From Clostridiaceae bacterium (lineage in GTDB: Bacteria > Bacillota > Clostridia > Lachnospirales > Lachnospiraceae), in NCBI GenBank assembly GCA_910574345.1, contig CAJSZV010000022.1, positions 1 through 64,000 of the forward strand: a stretch of 64,000 nucleotides of DNA, given 5' to 3'. Position numbers and translations under genes: made by a program. Positions 43,964-61,581 of the stretch are shown piece after piece. The notes under the pieces were generated by a model that saw nothing but the letters and a program-made list of their open reading frames with translations, did no database searches and was not told where the DNA came from. Position 1 is the stretch's first letter; the number at the start of each line of letters is the position of its first letter.

Positions 43964-45325
43964 ATGGAGCAACAAACATTTATGAAAGAAAAACCGATCC
44001 TTCCTTTGGTTCTGTCCATGTCCCTTCCCATGATCCTTTCCATGATGGTGTCGTCTCTCTACAACATCATTGACAGCTTCTTCGTGGCGAAGATCAGTGA
44101 AAATGCCATGACAGCCCTGTCCCTTCTGTTCCCCATGCAGAACCTGATCAACGCAGTCACCATCGGCTTTTCCATCGGGATCAATGCAGTCATCTCCTTT
44201 TATCTTGGAGCAGGAAAGCAGAAAGAAGCAGACACCGCCGCCTCTCTGGGATTACTGCTCAATGCCGCTCATGGAATTTTTCTGACTGTTTTCTGTGTGG
44301 GGGTCATGCCTTCCTTTTTAGGTATGTTCACAAATCAGCCGGAGGTCATCCATCTGGGAATCAGGTATTCCAAAATTGCATTCGGCTTTTCTGTGGTAAT
44401 TGCTCTGGCTATGGCCTTTGAAAAAATTTTTCAGTCTGTAGGAAAAATGTCCATAACCATGGTCAGTGTCCTCTGCGGCTGTGTATCCAATATTATCCTG
44501 GATCCCATATTCATCTTCGGGCTGGGCCCAGTTCCGGCAATGGGAATTGATGGCGCTGCCCTGGCTACCGGAATCGGTCAGACTGTCAGTCTTTTCATCT
44601 ACATAGCGGTTTTTGCGGTAAAACCTCTTCCCATAAACCTTTGCTTCCCCCGCCTGTCCGGCGAAAAGACCATGGCAGGGAAATTATACTCCATCGGTAT
44701 TCCGGCTGTCTTAAACCTGGCTCTCCCTTCCCTGCTGACAGCATCATTGAATGTAATCCTGGCCTCCTTCTCCCAGACCTATGTGCTGGTTCTGGGCGCC
44801 TACTATAAACTGCAGACCTTTCTCTATCTGTCTGCCAACGGAATCATTCAGGGCATGCGTCCGCTCATTGGATACAATTACGGAGCCGGAGAGCAGAAAA
44901 GAGTTCAAAGTATCTACAAAGTCTGTCTCCTTCTGGCTGCCGGAATTATGACAGCAGGCACTGTTCTGTGCCAGGCCATCCCCTCTCGGCTTATGAGTCT
45001 CTTTACCTCCAATGGGGATACCATTGCCGCCGGGGCCTGCGCTCTTCGGATTATCAGTATGGGATTTATCATCTCATCTGTCTCAATCATCTCCTGCGGA
45101 GCACTGGAGGGACTCAGTAAGGGACTCGCTTCTCTGGTTATTTCTCTCCTGCGATATGTTTTGGTGACCATTCCTGCGGCATGGGGACTGAGCCGTTTTA
45201 TGGGAGCCGCAGGAGTATGGCATGGATTCTGGGTATCGGAAGCCGTAACTGCAGTCATTGCCTATTGTCTGATTCGCCAAAAAGGCCTGGGAAAAACCAA
45301 AAACACGGCAGTCCATAAGACATGA
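43964..45325 (+). CDS. MATE family efflux transporter, MepA-like
   Basis: This 453-residue membrane antiporter has twelve predicted helices in two six-helix halves (first half PMILSMMVSSLYNIIDSFFV, GFSIGINAVISFYLGAGKQKEA; second half SLLTASLNVILASF, GMRPLIGYNYGAGEQKRV). The pattern is that of the MepA/DinF-type Na+- or H+-coupled multidrug exporters. The leader with a terminator suggests control by a small ligand, perhaps a guanidinium compound which such pumps may export. Confidence 0.9.
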   Translation: MEQQTFMKEKPILPLVLSMSLPMILSMMVSSLYNIIDSFFVAKISENAMTALSLLFPMQNLINAVTIGFSIGINAVISFYLGAGKQKEADTAASLGLLLNAAHGIFLTVFCVGVMPSFLGMFTNQPEVIHLGIRYSKIAFGFSVVIALAMAFEKIFQSVGKMSITMVSVLCGCVSNIILDPIFIFGLGPVPAMGIDGAALATGIGQTVSLFIYIAVFAVKPLPINLCFPRLSGEKTMAGKLYSIGIPAVLNLALPSLLTASLNVILASFSQTYVLVLGAYYKLQTFLYLSANGIIQGMRPLIGYNYGAGEQKRVQSIYKVCLLLAAGIMTAGTVLCQAIPSRLMSLFTSNGDTIAAGACALRIISMGFIISSVSIISCGALEGLSKGLASLVISLLRYVLVTIPAAWGLSRFMGAAGVWHGFWVSEAVTAVIAYCLIRQKGLGKTKNTAVHKT

Positions 45326-45359
45326 AAAGCGCAGCCCTTTATGGACTGCGCTTTTCATG
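45321..45359. terminator. Bidirectional terminator between MATE and RidA genes
   Basis: CATGAAAAGCGCAG (45321-45334) and CTGCGCTTTTCATG (45346-45359) form a perfect 14-bp stem that includes the MATE stop codon. An alternative pairing exists between GCAGTCCATAA (45309-45319) and TTATGGACTGC (45339-45349). It would end both the pump transcript and the ten-gene operon from the right. Confidence 0.85.
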
Positions 45360-45373
45360 GATATGCCGTCACT

Positions 45374-45844
45374 CTATTTCAATTCCACCAGCACTTCTAT
45401 CTCACAGGCAATTCCCCCCGGAAGAGAATTAGTTCCGATAGCCGACCGGGCAGGCAGACCTGCCTCCTCCCCGAAGATATCATAAAGCAGCTGGGAGCCG
45501 CCGTTGACCACCTGGGGCTGTTCTGTAAAATCATCTGCCGAGTTCACAAAGGCCAGCAGCTTTACAAACCCCTTGATCCTGTTTAAGTCTCCGGTTTTTT
45601 TGTGAAGATTCGCCAGAAGATTCAGCATGCAGTTGTACGCTGCTTTCTGCCCCTGTTCCACGGTCAGATCTCTTCCCAGTTTTCCGACCACATTTTCCCC
45701 GCCAATGGCCGGGCCGCAGCCGGAACAATACAGAAACTTCCCGCCAAACTCCTTAACCGGACTGTAGACCCCTCCCCTTGCCGGCGCCTGGGGAAGCTCA
45801 ATCCCTTTTTCCTTTAAAATTTCATAAATATCCTTCATGATCAT
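45374..45844 (-). CDS. RidA/YjgF-family enamine/imine deaminase
   Basis: This 156-residue protein matches the RidA superfamily, YjgH-like group (GKFLYCSGCGPAIGG, NCMLNLLANL, GLPARSAIGTNSLPGGIACEIEVLVEL with the key Arg before S/T). RidA hydrolyses reactive enamines/imines made by PLP-dependent dehydratases. It is the last gene of the ten-gene operon and lies 25 bases after the D-amino-acid PLP enzyme, a natural partner. AGGAGGG precedes; the ATG at 45844 or the one two codons later may be used. Confidence 0.88.
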   Translation of the reverse strand: MIMKDIYEILKEKGIELPQAPARGGVYSPVKEFGGKFLYCSGCGPAIGGENVVGKLGRDLTVEQGQKAAYNCMLNLLANLHKKTGDLNRIKGFVKLLAFVNSADDFTEQPQVVNGGSQLLYDIFGEEAGLPARSAIGTNSLPGGIACEIEVLVELK

Positions 45845-45869
45845 TATCCCTCCTCAGATGCCGATTCCA

Positions 45870-46970
45870 TCAAACGCTTTTGTTCTGTGCATCTATCCGT
45901 ATCACCTGGCAGAAAGCGCCGTCCCGAAAACCATAAACGCGTTCTGCAAGATTGGTTACCACACATGCATGATTGGGAATCAGCGTGATCTTATCCCCTA
46001 TCTTAAGAGGATTCATTCCCTCTGCCCTGACAAATGCATGCTCTTCATTCAGTGCATAAACTTCCAGTTCCGGATAATCCGGAATATACCCGTAACCTTT
46101 CCGGTAGTGGCAGCTGTCCGATGTCAGGGATTTAGTTCCCACATCACAGATCACCACATGATCATCGGGTTTTGCCACCACAGTGGTCACTATAAAAAGG
46201 GCGCACTCTTCTGGTGATGCAAGCCCTAAGTCGATCTGCCCGCAGTCATTGAATATGTAATGCCCGCTTCTGATCTCCGTGATGCCGGATAACAGCCATG
46301 GACGCTTGCCGGAAAAACTGGAACCGGCGCTTAACACATTCATGGAAAATCCGTCTTCCTCCAATATCTTTGCTGTCCCTGTCAGTTCGTCATGCTCTTT
46401 TCGGGTATATTCATCTAACTCTTCAAAATTACGGGCATTGTAGATCAGCCCTCCATAGTACATAAGGCCGATAATGCGAATCCCCAAAAGGGATCTAACC
46501 TGCCTGGCAAAAGCAAGGGCGTTCTCCGGCCTTACGCCTCCCCGGTTCAGCCCTCCGTCGATTTCTATGAGGACATCTATAACCCTGCCCCGGCTTTCAA
46601 ACCAGCGGCTCATGGCCTCCGCCGCCTCATAGCTGTTAATAACAGCAGAAAGAGAAACCCGTTCAGACAGACGGTACAGCCGTTCCAGTTTGTCCTCGCC
46701 GACTATGGGATAAGCCACAAATATATCGGTTATCCCACAGTCCGCCATGACTTCTCCTTCTCCAAGCTTGGCCACGGTAATGCCGTCGCAGCCGGCTTTT
46801 ATCTGCATCCCGGCAAAAAAACCTGACCGGTGTGTCTTAACATGAGGCCGGTGCTTCAGCCCGTATTCGTGGGCCTTTTCCACCATATTCTTTATATTGG
46901 CCTCTGCTGTTTCCAGTTCCACCACAACTGCCGGCGTAGGCAGTTTTTTCAATTCTTCATTTATTTTCAT
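45870..46970 (-). CDS. D-threonine aldolase / D-serine dehydratase-like PLP enzyme
   Basis: This 366-residue protein has the alanine-racemase-type N-terminal barrel (TPAVVVELETAEANI, with PLP-lysine in RPHVKTHRS) and the C-terminal D-serine-dehydratase-like domain with a His/Cys metal motif (IPNHACVV, DSCHYRKGYG). The DSD1 group eliminates or cleaves beta-hydroxy D-amino acids. Its neighbours (RidA, a DauR-like regulator) fit D-amino-acid catabolism. Exact substrate unknown. Confidence 0.85.
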   Translation of the reverse strand: MKINEELKKLPTPAVVVELETAEANIKNMVEKAHEYGLKHRPHVKTHRSGFFAGMQIKAGCDGITVAKLGEGEVMADCGITDIFVAYPIVGEDKLERLYRLSERVSLSAVINSYEAAEAMSRWFESRGRVIDVLIEIDGGLNRGGVRPENALAFARQVRSLLGIRIIGLMYYGGLIYNARNFEELDEYTRKEHDELTGTAKILEEDGFSMNVLSAGSSFSGKRPWLLSGITEIRSGHYIFNDCGQIDLGLASPEECALFIVTTVVAKPDDHVVICDVGTKSLTSDSCHYRKGYGYIPDYPELEVYALNEEHAFVRAEGMNPLKIGDKITLIPNHACVVTNLAERVYGFRDGAFCQVIRIDAQNKSV

Positions 46971-47001
46971 AAGCTTCCCCGTGCAAAATCAATGGGACAG
47001 C

Positions 47002-47646
47002 TCAGCTGTTTCTCGACTCCTCCAGATAGCCGTACATGGTGTTTTTAGAAATCTGGAGATATTTTGAGATGCGGTCTCCAGCCTTCGCTATCAAAAATGC
47101 ACCTTTCTGATCTAAATATTTTATTGCTTCCACTTTCTCCTGTTTTGACATATAACTGGGATGCTTTCCTATAGCGCGTTCGCAGCTTACAATTAATTCT
47201 TCCAGCAGTTCTCCCACGGATTCCGCAAAAACCTCCTGCTCCCGCGCTTCGGAAACCGGCATATTAAACTCATATTGGGACATGATTTTGCTGATGTTCA
47301 TCAGATCAGTCACATCAAAGTTAATACAGATGGAACCGATTACTTTGCCTTCCGGATTTTTCAGATAGATGCTGGAAGACTTTACCATTCTGCCGTCCTT
47401 TAGCTGGGTATAATACCGAAACATTCCGTTGGAATCCTTTTCCCCGTTAAGCACCTGAAGTCCCAGGTTGCTTCCGCATCCTCCGATGCTGCGCCCGGTG
47501 ATTTCCCCGTTTTCAATAGCCACAATGGTATGTTCATAATCCTCTGTCAGGTCATGTAAGACAACCTCGCATTTCTTTCCGAACTGCTCTGCAATTAGCT
47601 TAATGATGGTATTCAGATTTTCAAATTCTGCCCTTACTGATTCCAA
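47002..47646 (-). CDS. YheO-like PAS transcriptional regulator, DauR type
   Basis: This 214-residue regulator has a YheO-like PAS sensor domain (~8-115, FGKKCEVVLHDL, GRSIGGCGSNLGL, GSICINFDVT) and a C-terminal DauR-type helix-turn-helix (QEKVEAIKYLDQKGAFLIAK, ISKYLQISKNTMYGYL). The characterised member DauR represses D-arginine utilisation. It is encoded inside the operon it probably controls, between the creatininase and the D-amino-acid enzyme. Confidence 0.88.
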   Translation of the reverse strand: MESVRAEFENLNTIIKLIAEQFGKKCEVVLHDLTEDYEHTIVAIENGEITGRSIGGCGSNLGLQVLNGEKDSNGMFRYYTQLKDGRMVKSSSIYLKNPEGKVIGSICINFDVTDLMNISKIMSQYEFNMPVSEAREQEVFAESVGELLEELIVSCERAIGKHPSYMSKQEKVEAIKYLDQKGAFLIAKAGDRISKYLQISKNTMYGYLEESRNS

Positions 47647-47658
47647 TGTACTTCCCCC

Positions 47659-48456
47659 TTATATGGTCTTATCGCTGGTATATCGGTTATCCGCCCAAAA
47701 TTCATCCAGAAATTCCGCCAGACGATCCGTACAATACTCAAAGAGAGCTTTTCCCTTTTCAGCAGTCCCGTACTGGCCCATTCCCACATTTCCGTCAGGT
47801 GAATAAATTTCAAAATTATTATACATAACTACCGCATTTTTTGCAAACATATCCGCATTGAACCAGCGATTTCCCCCTTGGGGAATCTTATAATCAATGA
47901 TCTCTTTTTCTCTCACAAGTTCCGGCATTATATGCATCATTAAAGCCGTCTCCATCTCTCCGGCATGTCCCAAACCGCCTAAGGGAGTTTCCCTCCACTG
48001 CTTCTCTATATACTCCCCGGCAAAGTCCCAATATTTTGCCATTACCAGTTTGACTCCATACTTGGCGCCCAGTTCATTTACCCCGATGTGGAGGGCTGCA
48101 CTGTTGCCGCCGTGGGAATTGATCACCAGAAGTTTGCGGAAACCATAGGAGTGAACCCTGTAAAATATGGTCTCGATCATATGGGCCAGTTCTTCCTGCT
48201 CCAGAGAGAGAGTCCCTGTGAAAGCTAAATGGTGTCTTGAGAATCCATAGGGAATGGAAGGCAGCATAAACACAGTACTGTCTGCCTTCCGGGCCGCCTC
48301 TTTCACCATGGCTTCCCCAAGAATCAGATCTGTCCCCAGGGGAAGATGGCGGGCATGCTGTTCGCAGGATCCCACTACAATGGCGGCGACAGGTTTCTCT
48401 TTATCCGTCATTTCCAGTTCCTTTGCTGTAAAATGGTTCCACAGCTTCAGCATCAC
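47659..48456 (-). CDS. Creatininase-family amidohydrolase
   Basis: This 265-residue enzyme has the creatininase fold and metal ligands: E/H/D in GSCEQHARHLPLGTD, H in INSHGGNSAAL, E in GHAGEMETALMM. Members open cyclic amides (creatinine) or hydrolyse N-formyl or related amides. It may linearise the imported substrate. Its start (GTG 48456, or ATG three bases on) overlaps the stop of the upstream lyase, so translation is coupled. Confidence 0.88.
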   Translation of the reverse strand: MMLKLWNHFTAKELEMTDKEKPVAAIVVGSCEQHARHLPLGTDLILGEAMVKEAARKADSTVFMLPSIPYGFSRHHLAFTGTLSLEQEELAHMIETIFYRVHSYGFRKLLVINSHGGNSAALHIGVNELGAKYGVKLVMAKYWDFAGEYIEKQWRETPLGGLGHAGEMETALMMHIMPELVREKEIIDYKIPQGGNRWFNADMFAKNAVVMYNNFEIYSPDGNVGMGQYGTAEKGKALFEYCTDRLAEFLDEFWADNRYTSDKTI

Positions 48457-49631
48457 TTATGTCCCCTTTCTTCATATTTTCCCGGATCTTTCAGGCCGGA
48501 GCCTGTCAAAAGAACGGCAATATCATGGCTGCTGTCAATAAGGTTTTCCGCTTTCGCCTTCATCACTCCTGCCAGAGCTGCGGCAGACGACGGCTCCACG
48601 AAGATTCCCTCTTTTCCTGCCAGCAGTTTTCCCGCCGCCAGAATTTCCTCATCACTTACCGTAAGGCCCAGCCCGCCGCTGCCCTTTATGGCTTTTACGG
48701 TCAGATCCCCATTGTCCTCATATCCAAGCAAAGGATCTGCGATGGCTGACGCGATTCCTCCCGGATTCTCCCAGCCCACAGTCTTCCCGCCTGTCCGCCA
48801 TGCTCTCACAATCGGAGCGCATTGTTCGCTCTGTACCGCCGCCAGACGAGGAATGGTCTTAAGCCTGCCCGTCATACAAAGCTCTTCAAATCCTTTGTAG
48901 ATACCGTACAGCACAGGCCCCGCACCTACGGGAATAAAGACATAGTCCGGCATATTTCCGGCCTGCATATAGATTTCATAAGCCATGGTTTTATAACCTT
49001 CCACTGCCAAAGGCGATAAAAACGTGGTAGTCAGGTTCATGGTTCCCGGTTCCTTTGCCATCTCCTTTGCATATTCATAAGATTTATCAAATTTCCCCGG
49101 AATCCGGCAGATGCTGCCGCGGCAGGTCTGAGCGTGAATTACCTTCCCCGCAGGCGTACCCCGCGGAACAGCCACAGTCACAGGAATTCCTGCCCTTGCG
49201 CCATAAGCTGCACTGCTTGCCGCTCCGTTTCCCGACGAGGCCACCACCACCCTTTTTACTCCCAGTTCCAAAGCCGCAGACACACACAGGGCAATGGCAC
49301 GATCCTTAAAAGATCCTGTAGGATTCCTGGTCTCATCTTTCATCCAGAGAGAATGGATACCCAGCTCCTCTCTTACATGTTTTCCTTCTATATATGGAGT
49401 ATTACACTCCTGCAAAGTAACCCAGTTATCCTTTTTTATGTCCGGCAGAACTGGTTCAAAAGAGGAAATCCCTTTTATCTCTCTCTGATGCAGCAAACGA
49501 TTCTGCCCGTCTCTTAGAGCTTCCGGGGCATACTGCACCAAAAGAATTCCGCCGCAGGCACTGCATGTTCCTTGAGAAAGATCTAAGTATTGGCTTTTAC
49601 ACTTTATACACTTCAGTATGGCTTTATCCAT
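48453..49631 (-). CDS. Threonine-synthase-like fold-II PLP lyase with N-terminal zinc ribbon
   Basis: This 392-residue enzyme has a Cys4 ribbon at the N terminus (CIKC ... CSAC), then a tryptophan-synthase-beta fold: PLP lysine in PTGSFKDRAIA, phosphate loop SSGNGAAS, PVGAGPVLYG, ending LLTGSGLKDPG. It looks like threonine synthase, but in a catabolic operon without other threonine genes it more likely is an ammonia-lyase or beta-replacement enzyme. It overlaps the M20 gene by 8 bases. Confidence 0.85.
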   Translation of the reverse strand: MDKAILKCIKCKSQYLDLSQGTCSACGGILLVQYAPEALRDGQNRLLHQREIKGISSFEPVLPDIKKDNWVTLQECNTPYIEGKHVREELGIHSLWMKDETRNPTGSFKDRAIALCVSAALELGVKRVVVASSGNGAASSAAYGARAGIPVTVAVPRGTPAGKVIHAQTCRGSICRIPGKFDKSYEYAKEMAKEPGTMNLTTTFLSPLAVEGYKTMAYEIYMQAGNMPDYVFIPVGAGPVLYGIYKGFEELCMTGRLKTIPRLAAVQSEQCAPIVRAWRTGGKTVGWENPGGIASAIADPLLGYEDNGDLTVKAIKGSGGLGLTVSDEEILAAGKLLAGKEGIFVEPSSAAALAGVMKAKAENLIDSSHDIAVLLTGSGLKDPGKYEERGHK

Positions 49632-50772
49632 TTTGCCCCGAATCCTTCCTCAGTACATGTCGTGCCAGCATCTCGTAATACTTCGCCGCCTGCTCCACCT
49701 GCCTAAGTTCTACAAATTCGTCCACAATATGGGCCTGCTCAATGCTGCCGGGCCCAATGACAATCGCCGGAATCCCTTCTCTGGTAAACAGCACCTGCTC
49801 ACAGGTGGCCGGAAAGTCCCGAACCCTTGTCTTCTCTCCGGCAGTCTTTTCGAAAACCGCTTTGGCTGTCTTCACAAAAGGATGATCCATGGCGATCTCG
49901 CCCGGTTCCAGGTTAATATAACGCCTGAGGGAATACTCAAACTGATCATCACTGCTCTTTATTTTCTCCAAATACTCCCGTATTCTTTCCTCCGCCAAAT
50001 CTCCCGTATCCCCTGGTATCATCCGGTAATCCACGGCAATCCGGCAGGTTCCGGGAATAATATTGTCCTTCTCTCCGCCATTTATCATAGTCACCGATAT
50101 GGAAGGCCTTCCCAAAAGAGGATGGGACACGGTCTCCAAAGCTCTGTCCATGTCCTCTATGGCACGGACTGCCTTCAAAGCCTTTCCCACAGCATTGACC
50201 CCGTTCCAGGGCATGCCGGAATGACAGCTTCTTCCTTCTACCGTAATCTCAAACCTGGCCGTCCCCTTGTGAGCTACTGCAATCTGTAAGTTTGTAGGCT
50301 CACCGATGACCACATAGTCCCCGTCTTCCCATCCGTGCTTACAGCTTAAGGTTCCTAAATTAATAATCTCCTCATCCGCCACAAAATTCAGGCACAGCTC
50401 GCCCCAAAGTCCCTGTGTATTTCGGGCAATCCTGATTCCGGCCTCCATCATGGCCGCAACGCCGCCTTTCATGTCAGCGCTGCCTCTTCCATAGAGTTTT
50501 CCATCCCTGATCACCGGTTCAAAAGGCGGTGTCGTCCATCCCTTTCCCGCCGGGACCACATCAAGATGTCCGTTAAATACCAGTTTCGGCCCTTCTCCCA
50601 TAGGCAGACGGGCAATTATGCTTTTTCGATTCTTCCCACACTCCGGCTGCTCTGTGAGAAATCCCAAAGGTTTTAATGTCTCATCAATCCATGCCGCCAG
50701 CTCCGCCTCATTCCCCGGCGGATTTGTGGTATCAACGGAGACCAGTTTTTTCAATATATCTACTGCCTGCAT
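49624..50772 (-). CDS. M20-family metal-dependent deacylase/peptidase (ArgE/DapE-like)
   Basis: This 382-residue enzyme has the M20 two-metal site: NGHLDVVP, RGSADMKGG, and the catalytic base in FVADEEI, plus a lid domain (~165-285). M20 members deacylate N-acyl amino acids or cut dipeptides. In this operon it might free the amino acid from an N-acyl derivative. It follows dctM by ~21 bases. Confidence 0.9.
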   Translation of the reverse strand: MQAVDILKKLVSVDTTNPPGNEAELAAWIDETLKPLGFLTEQPECGKNRKSIIARLPMGEGPKLVFNGHLDVVPAGKGWTTPPFEPVIRDGKLYGRGSADMKGGVAAMMEAGIRIARNTQGLWGELCLNFVADEEIINLGTLSCKHGWEDGDYVVIGEPTNLQIAVAHKGTARFEITVEGRSCHSGMPWNGVNAVGKALKAVRAIEDMDRALETVSHPLLGRPSISVTMINGGEKDNIIPGTCRIAVDYRMIPGDTGDLAEERIREYLEKIKSSDDQFEYSLRRYINLEPGEIAMDHPFVKTAKAVFEKTAGEKTRVRDFPATCEQVLFTREGIPAIVIGPGSIEQAHIVDEFVELRQVEQAAKYYEMLARHVLRKDSGQNG

Positions 50773-50793
50773 ATCTTTCTCCTCTCTTCCCTT

Positions 50794-52074
50794 TTAGAAA
50801 AACAGACTTGGAAGCCACAGTGTCAGAGGCGGAATATAGGTGATCAGCAGAACCACTATGATTCCTCCTATAAAGAACGGCAGAAGATCAAGGACGCAGT
50901 CTTCAATCTTGGTCTTGGATATGGCACAGGATATAAACAATGTGGTTCCCACCGGCGGCGTAAACAGTCCCAGTGCCAGAGACACCAGCGTCACAATACT
51001 GAACTGTATGGGATCCACTCCCAGACCTATGGCAATAGGCATAAAGATGGGAAGGAAAATAAACAGGTTCGGCACATTGTCCATAATCATGCCTGCTACA
51101 AACAGCATGGACACCATAACTAAAAGCAGAAGGTTCTTAGACAGTCCCAGGCCCAAAAGCCAGTGGGAGATCATGGTAGGCACATTCTCTCTCACCAGGA
51201 TCCACTGAAAAATGGATGCGCTGCACACCACCAGCATGACGGATGTAGTTCCCTTTGCAGTTTCTGCCAAAGCCCTGTAGATGGCTTTGAAGTCCAAAGT
51301 CTTATATACCACCAGACCCAGGAATAAGGCATAAACCGCTGCCAGTGATGCCGACTGTGTAGGGGTGGCTATTCCCAGAATAATACTCCCAAGAAGAATA
51401 ACCGGCAAAAACAGAGCCCATATGGTATGAATCAGCGCCTGTTTTATCTCCTTCCATGTAGCTCTTTTCTCCCTCGGATAGTTGCGCTTCACAGACATAA
51501 CAACCGTAATGGCAAGGTACATAAGGCCAAGCAAAATACCTGGTATGGCTCCCGCCATGAACATCTTCGCCACGGAAAGACCAGTAATCCATGCTATGAT
51601 AATCATGGTGCTGCTGGGCGGAATGATAATTCCCACAGTGGAACTGGTTGCATTGATCGCCACGGAAAAGGACTCGTCATACCCTTTGCGGTTCATCTCC
51701 GGTATGAGAATGCCGCCTACGGATGCCGCATCCGCAACCGAAGAACCGGATACTCCTGCCAGTAGCATGCTGGTAACTACAGACACACATCCCAGACCTC
51801 CCGGCAGCTGACGCACCAGCACGTCTGCAAAACGGATAATCTTCATTGCAACACCTGATTCCACCATAAGATTTCCGGCAAGGATAAAAAACGGAACAGC
51901 CAGAAAGGAAAAGGACTGTGTGTTGGAGAAAAATCTCTGCACTGCCATCTGCAGCGTAATTCCATTCATCAGCATATAAGTAACGCCGGTAATACCCATG
52001 GAAAACGCAATGGGGACACCTACGGCAATCATGACAAAAAACAGCAGAAAAATCAAAATAAGCGTACTATTCAT
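50794..52074 (-). CDS. dctM: TRAP transporter large permease, DctM
   Basis: This 426-residue permease with ~12 helices carries the Na+-driven solute across the membrane. Typical parts are FFVMIAVGVPIAFSMG, GVSGSSVADAASVGGILIPEM and GLGVDPIQFSIVTLVSLALGLFTPPVGTTLF. Start ATG 52074 follows GGAGG and overlaps the dctQ stop by 8 bases; the frame upstream to 52125 is shadow. Confidence 0.93.
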   Translation of the reverse strand: MNSTLILIFLLFFVMIAVGVPIAFSMGITGVTYMLMNGITLQMAVQRFFSNTQSFSFLAVPFFILAGNLMVESGVAMKIIRFADVLVRQLPGGLGCVSVVTSMLLAGVSGSSVADAASVGGILIPEMNRKGYDESFSVAINATSSTVGIIIPPSSTMIIIAWITGLSVAKMFMAGAIPGILLGLMYLAITVVMSVKRNYPREKRATWKEIKQALIHTIWALFLPVILLGSIILGIATPTQSASLAAVYALFLGLVVYKTLDFKAIYRALAETAKGTTSVMLVVCSASIFQWILVRENVPTMISHWLLGLGLSKNLLLLVMVSMLFVAGMIMDNVPNLFIFLPIFMPIAIGLGVDPIQFSIVTLVSLALGLFTPPVGTTLFISCAISKTKIEDCVLDLLPFFIGGIIVVLLITYIPPLTLWLPSLFF

Positions 52075-52567
52075 GGTGCACCTCCAAGTTGACAAACCGC
52101 TGGATGATGCGCAGCAGCAGGACAAGAGTGATCATTCCAAACATCAGCAGCATGGAAAGATAAAGCACGGTCTTTGGAAAACGAAACAAAGGCATGTACA
52201 GTTCCTTCATGCTCACGCACATCTCCCAGCTGGCCGTAAACATCAGCCAGGAGAACGCAATACAGATCATATCGATGACCGTATCCACGATTATTTTTGC
52301 CGTTCCCTTAAACTTGGTCTTCACAATATCCAAAGCGATATTTCCGTCCCGCATAGTGATGATGACCCCGGAAAATCCGGTAATCCAAGCAAATGTAAGG
52401 CCTGTCAGTTCTGTGGTTATGGTAATGGGATATTTCAAAAGAGTAGAAAATACATCCAGAACCACTACAACAATCATGATTGTCACAAGAATCGCATTGA
52501 AGAAAGAAAATATGGTTTCTGTCAAATCAAAAAAGCGGTTCAATGTATGGTTAAACTTTGTCCGCAT
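52067..52567 (-). CDS. dctQ: TRAP transporter small permease, DctQ
   Basis: This 166-residue protein has four helices and the DctQ signatures FAWITGFSGVIITMRDGNIALDI. It is the small membrane subunit that scaffolds DctM. Preceded by GGAGGG on the minus strand and located directly after the binding-protein gene. Confidence 0.92.
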   Translation of the reverse strand: MRTKFNHTLNRFFDLTETIFSFFNAILVTIMIVVVVLDVFSTLLKYPITITTELTGLTFAWITGFSGVIITMRDGNIALDIVKTKFKGTAKIIVDTVIDMICIAFSWLMFTASWEMCVSMKELYMPLFRFPKTVLYLSMLLMFGMITLVLLLRIIQRFVNLEVHHE

Positions 52568-52634
52568 TCACGTTCCCTCCTTTCGCCGGTGCGAAGGAAG
52601 GAAAACCGGGTTTTCTTTCCTCCGCACGTTTATG

Positions 52635-53714
52635 TTATTTCAGGAATTTCTCCGCATAATCCGCCGGAACACTCTGTGCAAATTCATCGTAGACAGGCTG
52701 CACCGCCTTGCGGAACTCTTCCAGCTCAGGATAAGTGATCTCCTTAAAATGAGGCGTTACCAACTCCAGATACTCCGTATCTGCGGAAGTGTAGTACTCT
52801 CTGGAAATCTCCTTGGCCGCATCAGCGGCTTCCTGAATAATATCCTGAGCCTCAGGATCCAGTCCATCCCACAAGGCTTTGTTGGTAATAAAGTTAATGT
52901 TGTAGCAGAAAATATTTACAATTGCCAGGTAATCCTGCACTTCATGGAACTTTGTCTGATATATAGCATCCAAGGGATTAAACTGGCCGTCTACCACACC
53001 CTGGGACAGGGCCATGTAAATCTCTGTGAAGGGCAGGGTCGTCACGGCTGCGCCCAGATTCTGGAACGAATTGATCAGCACCTGCTCATTGGGGCTTCTC
53101 ATCTTCAGTCCTTTCAGATCCTCAACCGTGTTGATGGGACGTTTATTGTTGGTGATCTGTGCGAATCCCAGGTCTCCGATGGAAAGGAGTTTATAACCGT
53201 TCTCTTCCGCTACCTTTCCCCAGTACTCCCCCAGTTCTCCGTCCGCCTGCTCATGGAACGCATCATAACCGCTCATGAAGAAGGGAAGGGAGATGGAACC
53301 AAACACCGGATCCACATTACTCATGGCGCCTCCTCCGGGAAGGGAAAAATCTACGGCCCCGATCTTCACTGCCTCAATCATCTCCTGCTCATTGCCCAGG
53401 GTTTCAGAAGGATAGAGTTCTACTTTCAGCCTTCCCCCCGACTTTTCCTCAACAATCCTTTTGAATTCATTAGCCATCTCTCCGCGGACGGAATCTTCCA
53501 CTGTATGATAGCCTAACTTAAAAGTGTAGGATTTCAGTTCCGAGCTGCCGGCAGACGCCTGGCTTTCTGCCTTCTCCCCAGATTCCGCTTTTGTCTCTGT
53601 CTGCGCCTGTGTGGGTGCTGCCGTGCTCTCAGCCGGTTTCGAACTGCTGCCGCAGCCTGTTAAGAGCGATACCGCCAATGCTGCGCTGATACTAAGTGAC
53701 CATAATTTTCTCAT
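52635..53714 (-). CDS. dctP: TRAP transporter substrate-binding lipoprotein, DctP
   Basis: This 359-residue protein has a lipoprotein signal (AALAVSLLTGCGSS), a Ser/Thr/Ala/Glu linker, then the DctP fold (ESTAAPTQ after the Cys; LGYHTVEDS, GELGEYWGKVAEENGYKLL). The conserved Arg that binds a carboxylate is in KGLKMRSPNEQ. It implies a carboxylate ligand such as an amino-acid derivative. The ATG at 53714 follows GGAGGAACC; the frame upstream to 53792 overlaps the aminotransferase. Confidence 0.93.
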   Translation of the reverse strand: MRKLWSLSISAALAVSLLTGCGSSSKPAESTAAPTQAQTETKAESGEKAESQASAGSSELKSYTFKLGYHTVEDSVRGEMANEFKRIVEEKSGGRLKVELYPSETLGNEQEMIEAVKIGAVDFSLPGGGAMSNVDPVFGSISLPFFMSGYDAFHEQADGELGEYWGKVAEENGYKLLSIGDLGFAQITNNKRPINTVEDLKGLKMRSPNEQVLINSFQNLGAAVTTLPFTEIYMALSQGVVDGQFNPLDAIYQTKFHEVQDYLAIVNIFCYNINFITNKALWDGLDPEAQDIIQEAADAAKEISREYYTSADTEYLELVTPHFKEITYPELEEFRKAVQPVYDEFAQSVPADYAEKFLK

Positions 53715-53755
53715 AGGTTCCTCCAATTTATTATAATTTTTTTGCTGTATGTAAA

Positions 53756-54943
53756 TCAAATATGTGCTTCCCCTTCCCTCCTTTCCGCACATCTACAATT
53801 TTGATGAACAAACCTTCTGATTCTTTCCGCTGCAATATCCAATGTCTCTTCCGCATTTGCAAAGGAAAGACGGATGTAGGATTCCTGGCCTTCCCCAAAG
53901 GCCGTCCCCGGCGCCAGCGCCAGTTTCTCCTGTTCCAGAAGTCCATACACAAATTCTTCTGCCCTCATGCCTGTATCTTCTATATTAAAGTACAAATAAA
54001 ACGTGGCTTCCGGTTTGCGGCACCTAAGTCCGTGAACGCCGGAGAGTCCCTCCACAATCCTGTCTCTTTGCCTTTTCAGGGAATCCAGAGACTCTCTGAC
54101 AAAGTCCTCTCCGTACTTAAGAGCCGCTATGGCTGCCCTCTGTGTCGGTTCACTGATGCAGGAAACACTGTACTCATGCATGGTCTCCAAAGCTTTCGCC
54201 ACATGAACAGGGGCAATAATATACCCGATCCTCCATCCGGTCATGGCATATGTTTTAGAAAAACTGTCTACAATAAGGCAGCGCTCCTCCATTCCCGGAA
54301 CATCATATATGCTGGTATAAGTCTCTTCCTCATAGATCATCCTGCGGTATACTTCATCGGAGATTACGGTCAGATCCCTCTCTTCTGCCAGTTTTGCAAT
54401 AAACTCCATGGTCTCCTTATGGATCACTGCGCCGGTGGGATTGGCTGGGGAATTCAAAAGAATAATCCGGGTCTTTTCATTCACCGCCTGGTTTAAATTC
54501 TCTTTTCTTACAACAAATCCGTCTTCCTCATATACCCTGACAAAGCGGGGAACCGCCCCCACCGTTCTGATCTGCCCAAGGTAGGTGGGCCAATAGGGTT
54601 CCATAACAACAACTTCATCTCCGGGATTCAAAAGGGTCATAAAAATCAAAAGCAGAGCTTCCGTCCCTCCCGCTGTCACAATTACCTGTTCCGGCAAAAT
54701 GCAGCGGTTCCCATAGCTTTCTGCGATTGCCCGGCGCAGATCCATAAGTCCTGCATTCGGGGTATAATGGGTCCTTCCTGAATACATACTTTTTACTGCG
54801 GCCTCTATGAATCTTTCAGACGTATGGCTGTCCGGTTCTCCCAGTGCCAGACTTATCACATCTTCTGATTCCGCAATACGGTTAAACACGGCCCTGATCC
54901 CTGAGGGCGGGGTAGTTAAGGTCAGATCGGATAGTTTTATCAT
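53756..54943 (-). CDS. Class I/II PLP aminotransferase
   Basis: This 395-residue aminotransferase has the fold-I core: TAGGTEALLLIF, LNSPANPTGAV, DEVYRRMIYEE, and the PLP lysine in DSFSKTYAMTGWRIGY. It is the first gene of the ten-gene operon. ATG 54943 follows GAGG; a GTG four codons upstream is possible. It would convert the final amino acid to a keto acid or transfer its amino group. Confidence 0.9.
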   Translation of the reverse strand: MIKLSDLTLTTPPSGIRAVFNRIAESEDVISLALGEPDSHTSERFIEAAVKSMYSGRTHYTPNAGLMDLRRAIAESYGNRCILPEQVIVTAGGTEALLLIFMTLLNPGDEVVVMEPYWPTYLGQIRTVGAVPRFVRVYEEDGFVVRKENLNQAVNEKTRIILLNSPANPTGAVIHKETMEFIAKLAEERDLTVISDEVYRRMIYEEETYTSIYDVPGMEERCLIVDSFSKTYAMTGWRIGYIIAPVHVAKALETMHEYSVSCISEPTQRAAIAALKYGEDFVRESLDSLKRQRDRIVEGLSGVHGLRCRKPEATFYLYFNIEDTGMRAEEFVYGLLEQEKLALAPGTAFGEGQESYIRLSFANAEETLDIAAERIRRFVHQNCRCAERREGEAHI

Positions 54944-54972
54944 GCCATTCCTCACATTCTTTCATGTTGTGT

Positions 54973-54989
54973 GATTAATATTTTTAATC
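54973..54989. promoter_or_regulatory. Second candidate LysR site in the divergent region
   Basis: GATTAA-TATTT-TTAATC is a 6-bp inverted repeat with a T-N11-A core, just upstream of the aminotransferase start and below its promoter. LysR regulators commonly bind such pairs. Confidence 0.35.
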
Positions 54990-55010
54990 TCGTGATTATT
55001 ATTATTAATT

Positions 55011-55040
55011 ATAATATATCATATTATTTGTGCTTGTCAA
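55011..55040 (-). promoter_or_regulatory. Promoter of the ten-gene operon with overlapping LysR-type palindrome
   Basis: On the minus strand TTGACA (55035-55040) and TATTAT (55011-55016) are 18 bp apart. The perfect palindrome ATAATATATCATATTAT (55011-55027) covers the -10 and part of the spacer and fits the T-N11-A LysR pattern. The divergent LysR gene is nearby, so it is the likely regulator. Confidence 0.55.
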
Positions 55041-55117
55041 CCTGTTTTTTTGGAATTATCCTCTGTACTTTGTAAAAAATACACAATGACAGACTGACGG
55101 CGTGCCCGTCATATGCA

Positions 55118-55148
55118 GCAAAAAACCGCTGCATCAGCGGTTTTTTGC
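55118..55148 (+). terminator. Isolated perfect terminator hairpin in the LysR leader
   Basis: GCAAAAAACCGCTG and CAGCGGTTTTTTGC form a 14-bp perfect stem with a CAT loop and T-run. A second small stem, TGACGG/CCGTCA, lies just ahead (55095-55112). No gene precedes it on either strand. It may end a short RNA or attenuate the LysR transcript. No gene is seen in the surrounding 54,944-55,336 gap. Confidence 0.65.
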
Positions 55149-55336
55149 CAGTACAGCGGTTTCTCAATTTACAAACATCCGTTCCTTGGAGTTCTTATTT
55201 TTTTACCTTATCCAAATCTGTAAAATTCAGACCGGCAGCATGAAGATTTTCTTGCCTTTTCCCTCTATTTATTGTATAAATTGCTTAGAACCTTGCAATC
55301 AACGACCCTGCATTTCACATAAAAGGAGACCTTTCT

Positions 55337-56230
55337 ATGGACACAAAGTACCTGACTTACATTCTGGCCATCGCCAGAAAGAAGAACATGACCAAAGCTG
55401 CCGAGGAACTATATGTATCCCAGTCCTCCTTAAGTCAGTACCTGTCAAAATTAGAAAGCGAGCTTGGGACTCCCCTGTTTTTCCGCAGCAAAGGAAGCCT
55501 CTCCCTCACTCCGGCCGGCAAACTTTATGTGGCCGCCGCCGAGGAAGTGATCCGCATTAAGGATCATTTATACCAGAGTATCCAGAATATCGACAACCGT
55601 GGACATATCACCATCGGGGTCACCTCTCAGTTCGGTTTAAAAATGCTTACAGAACTAATTCCGCCTTTTAAACAGCTGTTTCCTGATGTGACCATAGAGA
55701 TCTCGGAAACCAATGTTCCCTCTCTCACCAAAATGATCCTGGATGAAAGCATTGACTGCGGCATCATGGCCATTAATGAAATTCCGCCTTTCAGCCCCAA
55801 CCAAGTGGACGTGCTCCGCAAGGAAGAGGTTTATTGGGCAATCCCAAAAACTCATCCCTATTACCGTCAAAATCCTGACCAGCCCATAACCATCCGGGAT
55901 TTGACTGATTATTTCAGCGATGACAATATTCTTCTCTCGAAAAAAGGCTCTACTCTCCGGGTATTGACTGATCAGATCATCGAATCTTCACAGATTATGC
56001 TCAGCACTGTCTGCGAAACCAACAGCATTATCGCAACCCGAAGCATGGTAGCCATGGGAATCGGAATTACGCTAATCGGCGAATCCTGTTCCACTGACCG
56101 GGAACATATCGCTTATTACTCTATGGCCTCCCCGCTCTACCGCCTTAATGCATTTGTCCGCAGGAAAAATTGGGCGATGAACAATCCGGAACGTCATCTG
56201 CGGGAGCAGGTTCTATCGTATTTTTCTTAA
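55337..56230 (+). CDS. LysR-family transcriptional regulator
   Basis: This 297-residue regulator has a winged helix-turn-helix (LAIARKKNMTKAAEELYVSQSS at ~8-30) and a periplasmic-binding-like effector domain (ITIGVTSQFGL onward, with IPPFSPNQV). It is divergent from the ten-gene operon and convergent with the LarA-like gene, and so most likely controls the operon. AAAGGAG lies upstream of the ATG. Confidence 0.92.
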   Translation: MDTKYLTYILAIARKKNMTKAAEELYVSQSSLSQYLSKLESELGTPLFFRSKGSLSLTPAGKLYVAAAEEVIRIKDHLYQSIQNIDNRGHITIGVTSQFGLKMLTELIPPFKQLFPDVTIEISETNVPSLTKMILDESIDCGIMAINEIPPFSPNQVDVLRKEEVYWAIPKTHPYYRQNPDQPITIRDLTDYFSDDNILLSKKGSTLRVLTDQIIESSQIMLSTVCETNSIIATRSMVAMGIGITLIGESCSTDREHIAYYSMASPLYRLNAFVRRKNWAMNNPERHLREQVLSYFS

Positions 56231-56356: not shown

Positions 56357-57661
56357 TTAAAGCATAGCCGCCACATTGCCATCCTCATCAAATTCCAGTT
56401 CTGACGGTTCATCTAATGCCTCCAAACCTGGATATTTCCCTGCCTTAACATCCTCATAATACGACTCTGACAGCATAATCTGGCCGATATGAAGGCTGTT
56501 GGGAATGCGGACCACCCTCGGATTGGACTGGTCAATCCCATTGCAGGTACGGATGCACAGCTGGATGGCTTCCTTGTCCGTAGCCAGCACACATGGAATT
56601 CGGGCCGAATTAATCACCGTGCTGGTAATGCAGTTAGGATACATTTTTTCAATATCCATGGCATCGAATATTTTCTTTGTGATGGCGCTTGCCAATCCGG
56701 TTCCCAATGCATTGCCGTGAGACTCCTCGCTCAGGTTCAAAAAACAGGTTCTCTGAACCTCAACTCCGCCTTTGGCATATTCTGTGGAGAATGTGCCTGT
56801 AATATTCGGATCCACCCCTGTACCGCTGTAATTCTTCCCAATCTCATCCACAATCAGCACATCGCAGCTTTCGATTAACAGTTTAGGCATATTCTGAAAA
56901 GCCAGTTTCAAAAGTTCCGGTTCCCTCTTCAAAATCTTCTCACTGGGAATCCCTTCTATTTTCCAGGTCTCATCATATGCGTTTTCAATGCAGGGAATCG
57001 CAAACAGGACATTGGCCTTTTCCAAAACCACCTTTGCCATAGTCGGAATATTCTCGGCTATGACTCCCATTCCGTCTGTGTGAACCAGAGAGGCCCCCTT
57101 CTGTTTGCCAAGACCCACTGTCATCATCTTGCAGGGGCCGCTTTCATAGGGACCTCGAAAAGCATTATGGGGCTTTAACCGGCAGGAAATGATTATCCCG
57201 TCGGCCTCATAAGCGTTTTTATCCATATATACCGGCCTGTTTCTTTCACTGATTCCCAGTTCCACCACTTCCATAGAAGAGAGAATGGGGCATCCCATAG
57301 TTTCCTCCGTAATATGATATCCCTCCAGAATTTCCAGCTGCCCCTCAGCCGTAGCCCCGCCGTGACTCCCCATAGCGGGAACAATAAAGGGTCGTGCCCC
57401 CTGATCTTTTACAAAGTCCACGATTGCTCTTGTAATCCGATCCACATTGCGGATTCCACGGCTTCCTGCAGTAATAGCGATACGCATCCCCGGCTTTATA
57501 CGCCCGACCAGTTCTTTCTTTGAAAGCTCCCGGTATACAGTCTCCTTGATCTTTTCCGGGGGAATACATTCCCCCGGAAAAACCTGTCTGGCATGAAACA
57601 TAGGGGGAATCGGAATGTCACGAAGCAGCTCCGATACCTTTCCTCCTCTTACAACATCCAT
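56357..57661 (-). CDS. LarA-like (lactate racemase domain) protein
   Basis: This 434-residue protein matches the LarA/DUF2088 fold: AITAGSRGIRN, FIVPAMGSHGGATAEGQ (H100), SCRLKPHNAFRG (H165) and KMMTVGLGKQKGA. LarA uses a nickel-pincer nucleotide to racemise alpha-hydroxy acids. The cofactor synthesis genes larBCE are not nearby, but the key His residues are kept. Downstream of a dicarboxylate-type uptake system, it could epimerise a hydroxy acid such as an aldarate. Last gene of the operon. Confidence 0.8.
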   Translation of the reverse strand: MDVVRGGKVSELLRDIPIPPMFHARQVFPGECIPPEKIKETVYRELSKKELVGRIKPGMRIAITAGSRGIRNVDRITRAIVDFVKDQGARPFIVPAMGSHGGATAEGQLEILEGYHITEETMGCPILSSMEVVELGISERNRPVYMDKNAYEADGIIISCRLKPHNAFRGPYESGPCKMMTVGLGKQKGASLVHTDGMGVIAENIPTMAKVVLEKANVLFAIPCIENAYDETWKIEGIPSEKILKREPELLKLAFQNMPKLLIESCDVLIVDEIGKNYSGTGVDPNITGTFSTEYAKGGVEVQRTCFLNLSEESHGNALGTGLASAITKKIFDAMDIEKMYPNCITSTVINSARIPCVLATDKEAIQLCIRTCNGIDQSNPRVVRIPNSLHIGQIMLSESYYEDVKAGKYPGLEALDEPSELEFDEDGNVAAML

Positions 57662-57680
57662 AGTCGCTTTTCACTCCGGC

Positions 57681-58514
57681 TTACATTAATACTTTTACCT
57701 GACGCACTCTCTCGTCAATAAATTCCGCCCATACCGTGTCGTCCAGATAGATCTGATTCTCGTCCGTATACTGCCCCGCCCGATCCACAATCTCAATCTG
57801 ATTGGGATGGCTTGGAAGCGCAATGTCCACATGGATGGCTTTCAGCTTCTCGGCATCATCAAAGAATCTCTGACGCAGGGCCGGAGTCAAATACCTGCTC
57901 TTTGCATAGTAGTTATCATTCATAGTATTCGCTCCCACACCGCCATGCATCCCCACTGTATAGACTTCCCCATTTACCGGGTTCTTCACTTCCCAGAAAA
58001 AGCTGGTACATCCAATGGTATGACCCGGAGTCAGCATGGTTCGTATGGTTACATCGCCCATGACAATAGGCTCATGGTCAGAGTAATACTTATCCACCTC
58101 AAAGGTCTGTGGATGAGAATCCTTATCCAAAACCAAGGTTTCCTCAGGACACTCTTCCATAAATGTTGCGTCTTCCCTGGACATATAAAGCTCTGCTCCA
58201 GTCAGCTCCTTCATAATCCTGGCTGCTCCCATGTGATCAAAGTGAGCGTGGCTGATAAGGATCTTCTTGATATCCGCAGGATTGAATCCGATCTTGTAGA
58301 TGGAATCCACCAGCATATACGCGCTCTCTGGGATAGCCGCATCAATGAGAACCAGCCCTTCTCCCGTGTCGATGAGATAACACCCTACCCAGGTCTGTCC
58401 CGCCACATACCATGTGTGAGGAGCTACCTGAAAAGGCTCTATGGCCAGAGTCCATGGCCTGTAAGCCAGCGTGGCCACCGGATCCTTGGTTGCCGGAGTA
58501 CAACGAAATGCCAT
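57681..58514 (-). CDS. Metallo-beta-lactamase-fold hydrolase, B3-like
   Basis: This 277-residue hydrolase has the metal motif SHAHFDHMG (His89/91/94 region), a later GHT (~PGHTIGCTSFFW) and SHPNQ near the end. The layout, with VAGQTWVGCYLIDT near the start, resembles the broad B3-like group, not a proven antibiotic resistance enzyme. It lies between tctA and the LarA-like gene; lactone hydrolysis in sugar-acid breakdown is one possible role. Confidence 0.85.
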   Translation of the reverse strand: MAFRCTPATKDPVATLAYRPWTLAIEPFQVAPHTWYVAGQTWVGCYLIDTGEGLVLIDAAIPESAYMLVDSIYKIGFNPADIKKILISHAHFDHMGAARIMKELTGAELYMSREDATFMEECPEETLVLDKDSHPQTFEVDKYYSDHEPIVMGDVTIRTMLTPGHTIGCTSFFWEVKNPVNGEVYTVGMHGGVGANTMNDNYYAKSRYLTPALRQRFFDDAEKLKAIHVDIALPSHPNQIEIVDRAGQYTDENQIYLDDTVWAEFIDERVRQVKVLM

Positions 58515-58562
58515 AACAATTTCTCCTTTCCTGGATCTGTTCTGTCGATCCTATGCGATTAT

Positions 58563-60056: not shown

Positions 60057-60069
60057 AGTCTCTCACCTC

Positions 60070-60531
60070 CTAAAACAGCGAGCCTGAGGGCAGGCTGAGT
60101 CCAAAGACATAAATATAGATCACATATATGATTACGGAAAGAAGAACAGAATAAATAATTCTTCCCTTCAAAGTGCTTTTGCTCCCTTTTGCAAACATGG
60201 TCGTCAGGGCATAGGCAGCAAAAGGAGTGGTAATCAGATAGCCGATCAGGCTTGATACGAACACATACACCGCCAGAACCGCCATTGCCAAAGCCATACG
60301 GATCCAGCCCTCTTTTGTCATAAACGGCTTTTCTGCCTCCTGTTTCTTCATCCCCTCTACAAAAATCCCGGCTCCGCATACCACAAAGCCAAAGGCTGCG
60401 ATCATAGGAAGGGCCTTAGGTCCTGGGTAAGCCATGGAAAACGGCACGTTCATCTGACTGGTCATGACAAATACCACGATCCCTATGACCACCAGCAAAG
60501 CGCCTGTGAGCTGGTCCCTCTTTATATTCAT
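60070..60531 (-). CDS. tctB: Tripartite tricarboxylate transporter small permease TctB
   Basis: This 153-residue protein has four hydrophobic helices and the DUF1468 pattern (FSMAYPGPKALPMIAAFGF). It sits between tctC and tctA, the canonical place. The ATG precedes by GGGGCGGC-like sequence only, so the ribosome site is weak. Confidence 0.9.
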   Translation of the reverse strand: MNIKRDQLTGALLVVIGIVVFVMTSQMNVPFSMAYPGPKALPMIAAFGFVVCGAGIFVEGMKKQEAEKPFMTKEGWIRMALAMAVLAVYVFVSSLIGYLITTPFAAYALTTMFAKGSKSTLKGRIIYSVLLSVIIYVIYIYVFGLSLPSGSLF

Positions 60532-60553
60532 AGAATTTGCCGCCCCTTTCTCT

Positions 60554-61549: not shown

Positions 61550-61581
61550 TTTTCTTTTCTCCTTTTTCACGTTTAAGAACT

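Follow-up and report, generated by a model that had tools for sequence, protein, structure and literature searches.

A probable ten-gene TRAP-linked operon from a Lachnospiraceae genome, possibly for the catabolism of an N-acylated hydroxy-amino acid

Which compound is taken up and degraded by an operon that joins a tripartite ATP-independent periplasmic (TRAP) transporter to an M20 deacylase-family protein, two unrelated pyridoxal phosphate (PLP) enzymes, a creatininase-family protein, an aminotransferase and a Rid protein? The question was raised by ten genes in a 64,000-nucleotide stretch of a Lachnospiraceae genome (assembly GCA_910574345.1, contig CAJSZV010000022.1, positions 1 to 64,000), the whole of which is called the window here. 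The answer preferred below, for which the balance stands about even, is that the operon serves to break down an N-acylated beta-hydroxy-alpha-amino acid taken up from outside, which is most likely D-configured and small (an N-acyl-D-serine- or N-acyl-D-threonine-like compound, or a peptidyl form of D-serine).

The activities and the substrate were predicted from the gene order, motifs and homologies observed. DctP, DctQ and DctM would import the substrate anion, and the M20 protein would strip the N-acyl group, as suggested by its family and by the D-aminoacylase-type enzymes that take this position in relatives. The fold III enzyme, which displays a dehydratase motif, would convert the D-amino acid into an enamine and water, and the Rid protein would hydrolyse the enamine or imine to a 2-oxo acid and ammonia. 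The YheO-type protein would be the local regulator. More loosely, the fold II enzyme (PALP) might act as a further eliminase on a different isomer or analogue, hydrolysis of a cyclic or amide form might fall to the creatininase-family enzyme, and the aminotransferase might handle the other half of the substrate or the 2-oxo acid.

Organisation of the unit

Ten minus-strand open reading frames (ORFs) filled positions 45374-54955, every one scoring above the cut-off of its Pfam family. With the likely gene starts, which were read from Shine-Dalgarno-like sites, the junctions ranged from an 8-bp overlap to a 67-bp gap: 41 bp for aminotransferase/dctP, 67 bp for dctP/dctQ, an 8-bp overlap for dctQ/dctM, 21 bp for dctM/M20, an 8-bp overlap for M20/PALP, a 1- to 4-bp overlap for PALP/creatininase, and 12, 31 and 25 bp for the three downstream junctions. 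The aminotransferase ORF (53756-54955) has a possible GTG start at 54955 and an ATG at 54943 that follows a Shine-Dalgarno-like GTGAGGA; the listed dctP ORF reaches 53792, with a Shine-Dalgarno-like site fitting the ATG at 53714; and the listed dctM ORF begins with TTG at 52125, the ATG at 52074 being preceded by such a site.

Some 70 bp separate the promoter-like site upstream of the unit (Table 1) from the first ATG. Together with an overlapping second reading, this site ranked first among the 23 sites in 45200-55400 (12.5 sites in shuffles). Weaker minus-strand promoter-like sites (10 of 12) were seen inside the unit at 53759, 47954 and 47847, and extra transcription starts from them are conceivable. 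The hairpin 3' of the last gene has no U-tract after its stem and was absent from the list of a terminator scan (10 sites; 10.8 in shuffles). The continuous, overlapping minus-strand unit of the first-pass annotation was thus borne out by ORFs, Pfam matches and junctions; that the ten genes form one transcription unit, which we infer, is likely though not certain. Because the Rid protein, the sole PF14588 match of the genome (PF01042-type Rid proteins not counted), lies two genes from one of only two PAS_6 regulators, and because similar sets recur elsewhere, the genes appear to be associated above chance.

Predicted functions of the gene products

The fold III enzyme, D-serine dehydratase-like (DSD-like), displayed the metal motif PNHAC, aligning with the same motif in the solved D-threo-3-hydroxyaspartate dehydratase 3wqc. 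H-x-D was found at this pair in the D-threonine aldolases 4v15 and 7dib, and also in a BhcC and one Vibrio homologue, the only contrast sequences beside the aldolase structures. According to PMC4401734 (papers are cited by PMC number, from excerpts), the chicken dehydratase carries His and Cys here and the aldolase His and Asp. Since its pair reads His-x-Cys as in 3wqc and not His-x-Asp as in the aldolases, the protein was classed with the dehydratases, with a predicted activity on a D-beta-hydroxy amino acid; an aldolase role was rejected on the same cysteine, on the premise of PMC4401734. H-x-C was read in all 64 surveyed relatives (62 by pattern, two by alignment), namely 60 of the 87 matches outside the window genome (mostly, not strictly, the best) and four plasmid loci. 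This motif supports the elimination from a D-hydroxy amino acid that had been proposed at first pass.

The Rid protein matched PF14588/PF01042 and kept the arginine near its C-terminus, consistent with the enamine removal initially assigned to it. An RSA motif was displayed in seven of ten compared Rid loci; Lactonifactor reads ARAAIG, and G149 and a guessed stretch of G718 fall outside the pattern. The M20 protein passed the cut-off of its ArgE/DapE-type model and displayed the metal motifs, which bears out the family given by the first-pass annotation, deacylation being predicted. DctP, DctQ and DctM all matched TRAP families. The nearest PDB entry to DctP was 4p47, followed by the SiaP group; its MRSPN and DGQFNP stretches, which presumably have a ligand role, align with SiaP and so support the suggested uptake of a carboxylate.

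PALP reads TTTFLSPLAVEGYKT where four solved threonine synthases have NSVNPxR(I/L)EGQKT; the arginine of this motif, which binds the substrate phosphate in threonine synthases, is replaced by Ala209 (LSPLAVEGYK). The arginine was absent from eight of the nine PALPs at module loci (the exception being G1117) and from two PALPs of purine clusters, three other PALPs having it. Furthermore, the host genome possesses another ThrC-type gene with a Thr_synth_N domain. Because of the lost arginine and this other gene, PALP is probably not a threonine synthase, and it is proposed to be a beta-eliminase. It scored below PRK08197 (271.4 vs 303), as it did with four more of the threonine synthase models listed, and the purine-cluster PALP of locus L088 lay above both TIGR00260 and PRK08197 despite its lost arginine. 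Of the threonine-synthase-like lyase annotated initially, fold II and the likeness, with one model, were retained, and identity as a threonine synthase was not; a role in threonine biosynthesis was set aside on the two grounds given, although TIGR00260 was passed.

The creatininase-family protein kept the PF02633 metal motifs but lay below the models for creatininase (TIGR04448, EC 3.5.2.10; 108.8 vs 235) and MftE (111.6 vs 172). The tryptophan of the creatininase LGW motif, which has a functional role, aligned to a gap. Its initial naming as a creatininase therefore holds for the family and its motifs and fails for creatininase proper, and creatinine use was set aside on the TIGR04448 score. 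For the aminotransferase, none of the NCBIfam models shown reached its cut-off (best 354.2 vs 422); the nearest PDB entries were 1dju and 1gd9, and the Lactonifactor homologue was 41 % identical. Ring opening and transamination, both suggested at first pass, stay unsupported.

A more novel reading is put forward tentatively, by which the ten genes encode an undescribed pathway. Its substrate would be a beta-substituted amino acid, N-acylated and partly cyclic. The fold II PALP and the fold III DSD, PLP eliminases that are unrelated to each other, would act on different isomers or analogues of it and rely on a single Rid protein, the creatininase-family enzyme would open the cyclic form, and YheO-type regulator, Rid, eliminase and amide hydrolase would constitute a recurring, unrecognised module with different transporters.

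The regulator had been called DauR-like; its PAS_6/HTH_22 family was confirmed and the name corrected to YheO-like, a family commonly linked to a Rid gene (PMC4519771). Its identity was 42-52 % with the regulators from seven module loci and 37-38 % with a pair found in purine clusters. The second YheO-type regulator of the host lies in a cluster (L162, G000:C23:17500-37000) that by eye resembles the reductive uric acid pathway, with XdhD-, YgfK-, SsnA-, permease-, YgeX- and YgeY-like ORFs.

Table 1. Features of the operon and its borders, in window coordinates
Feature	Position	Strand	Evidence
Promoter-like site TTGACA-16-TATATT, upstream of the unit	55013..55040	-	Consensus scan, 11 of 12; predicted site
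Class I/II aminotransferase (fold I), SFSKT lysine	53756..54943	-	PF00155 231.5 bits
DctP, TRAP substrate-binding protein	52635..53714	-	PF03480 279.5 bits
dctP-dctQ spacer, hairpin-capable	52567..52635	-	76-nt stretch 52565-52640, -24.2 kcal/mol, z -2.92
DctQ, TRAP small permease	52067..52567	-	PF04290 62.7 bits
DctM, TRAP large permease	50794..52074	-	PF06808 400.7 bits; TIGR00786 418.6 over 268.45
M20 ArgE/DapE-type deacylase, motifs GHLD, ADMKGG, DEE, GEPT, QAH	49624..50772	-	TIGR01910 290.5 over 217.6
PALP, fold II PLP enzyme, threonine-synthase-like, four-Cys N-terminus, Lys109, Ala209	48453..49631	-	PF00291 242.4 bits
Creatininase-family amidohydrolase	47659..48456	-	PF02633 209.1 bits vs 31.3; EQH, GTD, SHGGN, HAGE kept
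YheO/DauR-type regulator (PAS_6 + HTH_22), TTG start	47002..47646	-	
Fold III PLP enzyme, dehydratase type (DSD-like), Lys45 in PHVKTH, metal pair H334-x-C336	45870..46970	-	
Rid-fold protein (PF14588), ARSAIG arginine	45374..45844	-	
17-bp hairpin 3' of the last gene, at the end of a convergent gene	45321..45359	-	-30 kcal/mol, z -6.45

Related loci and the nature of the substrate

A gene-neighbourhood search for the combination, as proposed at first pass, uncovered partial sets in related loci and the complete ten-gene set in none of the other loci read, not every genome having been searched for every gene. From the sequences, the recurring set is a YheO-type regulator, a Rid protein, a PLP beta-eliminase (PALP and/or DSD), an amide hydrolase (M20, D-aminoacylase type or M81) and a variable transporter. 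It was seen in genomes of the same genus, in Lactonifactor and on an Escherichia coli plasmid, and partly in Phaeobacter and Haladaptatus. In the relatives a PLP eliminase and Rid are constant, while transporter and amide hydrolase (M20, Amidohydro_3 or M81) vary. The reaction that would most simply fit them all is import of an N-acyl amino acid, deacylation, PLP elimination and hydrolysis of the enamine by Rid.

A scan of named genomes gave eight loci, Lactonifactor longoviformis ranking first (48 %; the others 24-38 %). In strain DSM 17459 (L019, L021, L085), a divergent regulator (42 %), Rid (39 %), M20 (35 %), creatininase (46-48 %), aminotransferase (41 %) and three PALPs (48, 38 and 34 %) were present. 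Unlike the operon, this locus displayed no DSD in the stretch read, three PALPs instead of one, and a ribose-type ATP-binding cassette (ABC) transporter with extra dehydrogenases (by eye) instead of TRAP. Plasmid NZ_CP095858 of E. coli (16637-21417) harboured contiguous genes for regulator (43 %), DSD (41 %), M20 (38 %) and Rid (51 %), followed by a major facilitator superfamily (MFS) transporter in place of TRAP; PALP, creatininase and aminotransferase were not listed beside them. This cassette was found in three of 5426 E. coli genomes, always plasmid-borne and with a reported identity of 100.0 %. An IS26-family transposase gene lies immediately upstream of it in the record read.

These two loci bear on a rather improbable alternative, by which the operon would unite two independent pathways: regulator, DSD, Rid and M20 would make up a D-amino-acid module, and PALP, creatininase and aminotransferase an unrelated one. 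The first subset indeed occurs alone on the E. coli plasmid, and in Lactonifactor the genes of the second are neighbours, the stretch read having yielded no DSD; however, the Lactonifactor regulator, Rid and M20 genes lie within ~17 kb of the second subset, and same-genus loci couple regulator and Rid to PALP.

Among the latter, G1129, G1114 and G1111 displayed a regulator (44 %), a PALP (38-39 %), an Amidohydro_3-type protein and ABC transporter genes, with a Rid protein of 56-58 % in G1129 and G1114 and one seen in three-frame translation in G1111. Their Amidohydro_3 proteins reached 446-462 bits with a model built from two such proteins, and the nearest PDB relatives of the G1129 protein were 9g5m, D-aminoacylases, N-acyl-D-glutamate deacylase and OngB. 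In G1129 the set is followed by a gene for a GarL/HpaI-like aldolase, which scored under the cut-offs of its models; similar ORFs were seen by eye in G1114 and G1111. G1117 encodes a regulator (52 %), a PALP (37 %), a PRK09237-type amidohydrolase (below cut-off) and Rid (53 %), and G149 a regulator, a PALP, an Na+/H+-antiporter-family protein and Rid. In all seven genomes with a module-type PALP (the host, Lactonifactor, G149, G1111, G1129, G1114 and G1117), regulator and Rid were both present in the stretch. Elsewhere in the phylum, DSD, Rid and Amidohydro_3 (D-aminoacylase family) genes were contiguous in G899 and G626. The order in Phaeobacter was TRAP, M81, DSD, sugar kinase and Rid; Haladaptatus displayed neighbouring creatininase, symporter, DSD and annotated D-aminoacylase genes on both strands; and G606 combined a creatininase and a Rid protein (45 %) with KDPG-aldolase-like and KDG-kinase-like genes (KDPG, 2-keto-3-deoxy-6-phosphogluconate; KDG, 2-keto-3-deoxygluconate).

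Several of these loci would also suit an N-acyl amino-sugar acid as substrate, either 2-acetamido-2-deoxygluconate (GlcNAc1A)-like or another 2-amino-2-deoxy-aldonate, which we consider unlikely but worth keeping in sight. The operon would then encode a version of the ong pathway that leads to a 2-keto-3-deoxy-aldonate, M20 standing in for OngB and TRAP for OngIT. The OngB/OngC/OngD logic (PMC9537276), the Phaeobacter TRAP-M81-DSD-sugar kinase-Rid order, the aldolase-like ORFs of G1129, G1114 and G1111, the creatininase, Rid, aldolase-like and kinase-like genes of G606, and the ribose-type ABC transporter (by eye) and Gfo/Idh gene of Lactonifactor all point this way. Nevertheless, no sugar kinase or keto-deoxy aldolase was found among the ten genes or among 30 further Pfam-scanned ORFs of the window (two of them lacking a family match), and neither is listed in the E. 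coli cassette. A serine- or threonine-type substrate was favoured because these enzymes were missing from the ten genes and from that cassette.

As for distribution, in counts that all include the window genome, PALP was found in 11 of 200 genomes of the family (E<=1e-40), in five of 26 of the genus (1e-60) and, in the order, solely in its own genome (one of 392, 1e-80). The creatininase was present in three of 397 family genomes (1e-40) and two of 398 phylum genomes (1e-50), and the stretch around a creatininase-like match in G170 had no other module gene. DSD was far more widespread (84 of 398 phylum genomes, E<=1e-60). Within 5 kb of the 64 surveyed DSD loci, Rid was detected in at least eight, Amidohydro_3 in at least five (one of 40 bits), an aminotransferase in at least two, and M20, regulator, creatininase and PALP in at least one each; these are lower bounds, since some stretches stop at contig ends. 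A tree of 34 rows, for which 25 of the 60 surveyed proteins were used, grouped the DSD of the window with the E. coli cassette protein, L037, L066 and L067 in a five-member 99/99 clade, L037, L066 and L067 each having a Rid match within 5 kb. The window protein forms a long branch whose nearest row by path is L066, its exact place being unsure. In L066 and L067 the DSD relatives stand, with their Rid match, amid MttB-type methyltransferase-, corrinoid protein- and reactivase-like genes (by eye), perhaps with N-methylated hydroxy-amino acids as substrates.

Several observations weigh against the N-acyl-D-hydroxy-amino acid reading. PALP, the creatininase-family protein and the aminotransferase are superfluous to its simple scheme. 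M20 deacylases are usually L-selective, and the Rid protein lies below the canonical RidA model (TIGR00004, 27.4 vs 106.25). PALP passes the TIGR00260 threonine synthase model (177.8 vs 167.1), and its G1117 counterpart retains the arginine. Eight further PALP loci of the family (L087-L094, purine-type or ThrC-like) displayed a regulator in four cases and Rid in none. Only a minority of the 64 surveyed DSD loci show such a context, and even within the clade of five, L066 and L067 lack M20 and Amidohydro_3 in the stretch read, L037 lying on a 3-kb contig. Finally, OngB is reported to have little or no activity on N-acetyl-D-serine (PMC9537276); the deacylase can therefore set the substrate.

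Further genes were noted around the operon. A LysR gene (55337-56230) lies upstream on the opposite strand and adjoins a minus-strand set (56357-62928) with an enolase-superfamily gene, a TctCBA tripartite tricarboxylate transporter, and MBL-fold and LarA-like genes. On the other side, one gene away from the operon, a linear amide hydrolase of the choloylglycine hydrolase family (PF02275, 42640-43692) could be an N-acyl amide hydrolase. Dense minus-strand genes at 28854-37259 belong to the ArgJ, amino acid kinase, class III aminotransferase and semialdehyde dehydrogenase families, followed by acetamidase/formamidase and ADP-ribosylglycohydrolase families.

Comparison with known pathways

The reductive uric acid pathway resembles the operon in its tail, which has a ring-opening amidohydrolase, an M20 enzyme and a PLP eliminase leading to pyruvate (PMC12507026, PMC12990295); in E. 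coli and Clostridioides difficile, UacY is an Amidohydro_3, YgeY an M20 and YgeX a PALP protein (PMC12507026). Uric-acid-like clusters of relatives also share YheO-type regulators and ThrC-like PALPs with the operon. By analogy, the substrate might be an N-carbamoyl- or N-acyl-2,3-diaminopropionate-like compound, with the creatininase-family protein as ring opener, M20 corresponding to YgeY and PALP to YgeX. This seems distinctly improbable. ThrC-like PALPs do occur with YheO-type regulators in the uricolytic-looking clusters L088 and L089, the M20 of L088 passes the YgeY model, and by eye a cluster of this kind surrounds the second YheO regulator of the host. The operon, however, has M20 and PALP proteins of other subfamilies (M20 scoring 179.7 vs the YgeY cut-off of 321), carbamoyltransferase, hydantoinase and carbamate kinase are absent from its ten genes, and L088 has a YgeX-looking ORF distinct from its ThrC-like PALP (by eye). 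Threonine-synthase-like PALPs without the conserved arginine recur in L087-L093, those of L088 and L089 inside uric-acid-type clusters; the excerpts of both uric acid papers give such a protein no role.

The beta-hydroxyaspartate cycle, as annotated in L157, likewise places a PALP, an enzyme of D-threonine aldolase fold and an aminotransferase in one operon, and ectoine or hydroxyectoine degradation shares TRAP, M20 and PALP (in part from PMC5924519). A variant of either is very improbable. The operon proteins lie far below the models for BhcC (145.9 vs 690), BhcB (68.9 vs 550) and EutB (46.7 vs 413), the metal pair is H-x-C against H-x-D in BhcC, and no BhcA-, BhcD-, DoeA- or DoeD-type gene occurs among the ten. 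Both pathways were rejected on model scores, metal motif and missing genes.

For the pairing of regulator and Rid, a described counterpart is CfiR-CfiP (Cj1387c-Cj1388) of Campylobacter jejuni, in which a YheO-type PAS regulator adjoins and represses a Rid-domain gene; unlike for the ten-gene operon, no catabolic enzymes are mentioned in the excerpt of PMC4519771.

If the preferred reading is true, the operon would let a bacterium feed on D-hydroxy-amino acids in N-acylated form or on oxidised amino sugars, for which few routes have been described, and would give testable functions to genes otherwise annotated as 'threonine synthase', 'creatininase' or 'alanine racemase'. The design of YheO-type regulator, Rid and PLP eliminase could also be used to look for further pathways.

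By analogy, the closest characterised pathway is that of the ong cluster of Pseudoalteromonas prydzensis, which serves GlcNAc1A catabolism in a marine chitin pathway (PMC9537276). OngB deacetylates GlcNAc1A, the fold III enzyme OngC deaminates the resulting 2-amino-2-deoxygluconate (GlcN1A) and also D-Ser and D-Thr, and the Rid protein OngD is essential in vivo, its exact role being unestablished in that source. The core triple of deacylase, fold III PLP deaminase and Rid is common to both. In the operon, the fold III and Rid genes (45374-46970) are likewise neighbours, 25 bp apart, the likeness to OngC being one of fold. The two differ in the deacylase (OngB is D-aminoacylase-like; the operon has M20 and no D-aminoacylase type among its ten genes), in the transporter and regulator (a solute:sodium symporter (SSS) and an RpiR-type regulator against TRAP and YheO type), and in the sugar kinase KdgK, for which no KDG kinase counterpart was found in a search of the ten genes. 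PALP, creatininase and aminotransferase, all present in the operon, are not in the ong gene list as excerpted. The first-pass annotation had stated that no described pathway has this set: for the whole set this was not contradicted by the open-licence literature searched, which left it undescribed among the matches listed, but the core triple, unnamed there, is that of ong (PMC9537276). The M20/TRAP/YheO build, with its second eliminase, creatininase-family enzyme and aminotransferase, thus appears in the searches made as an undescribed variant whose core logic is already known from ong.

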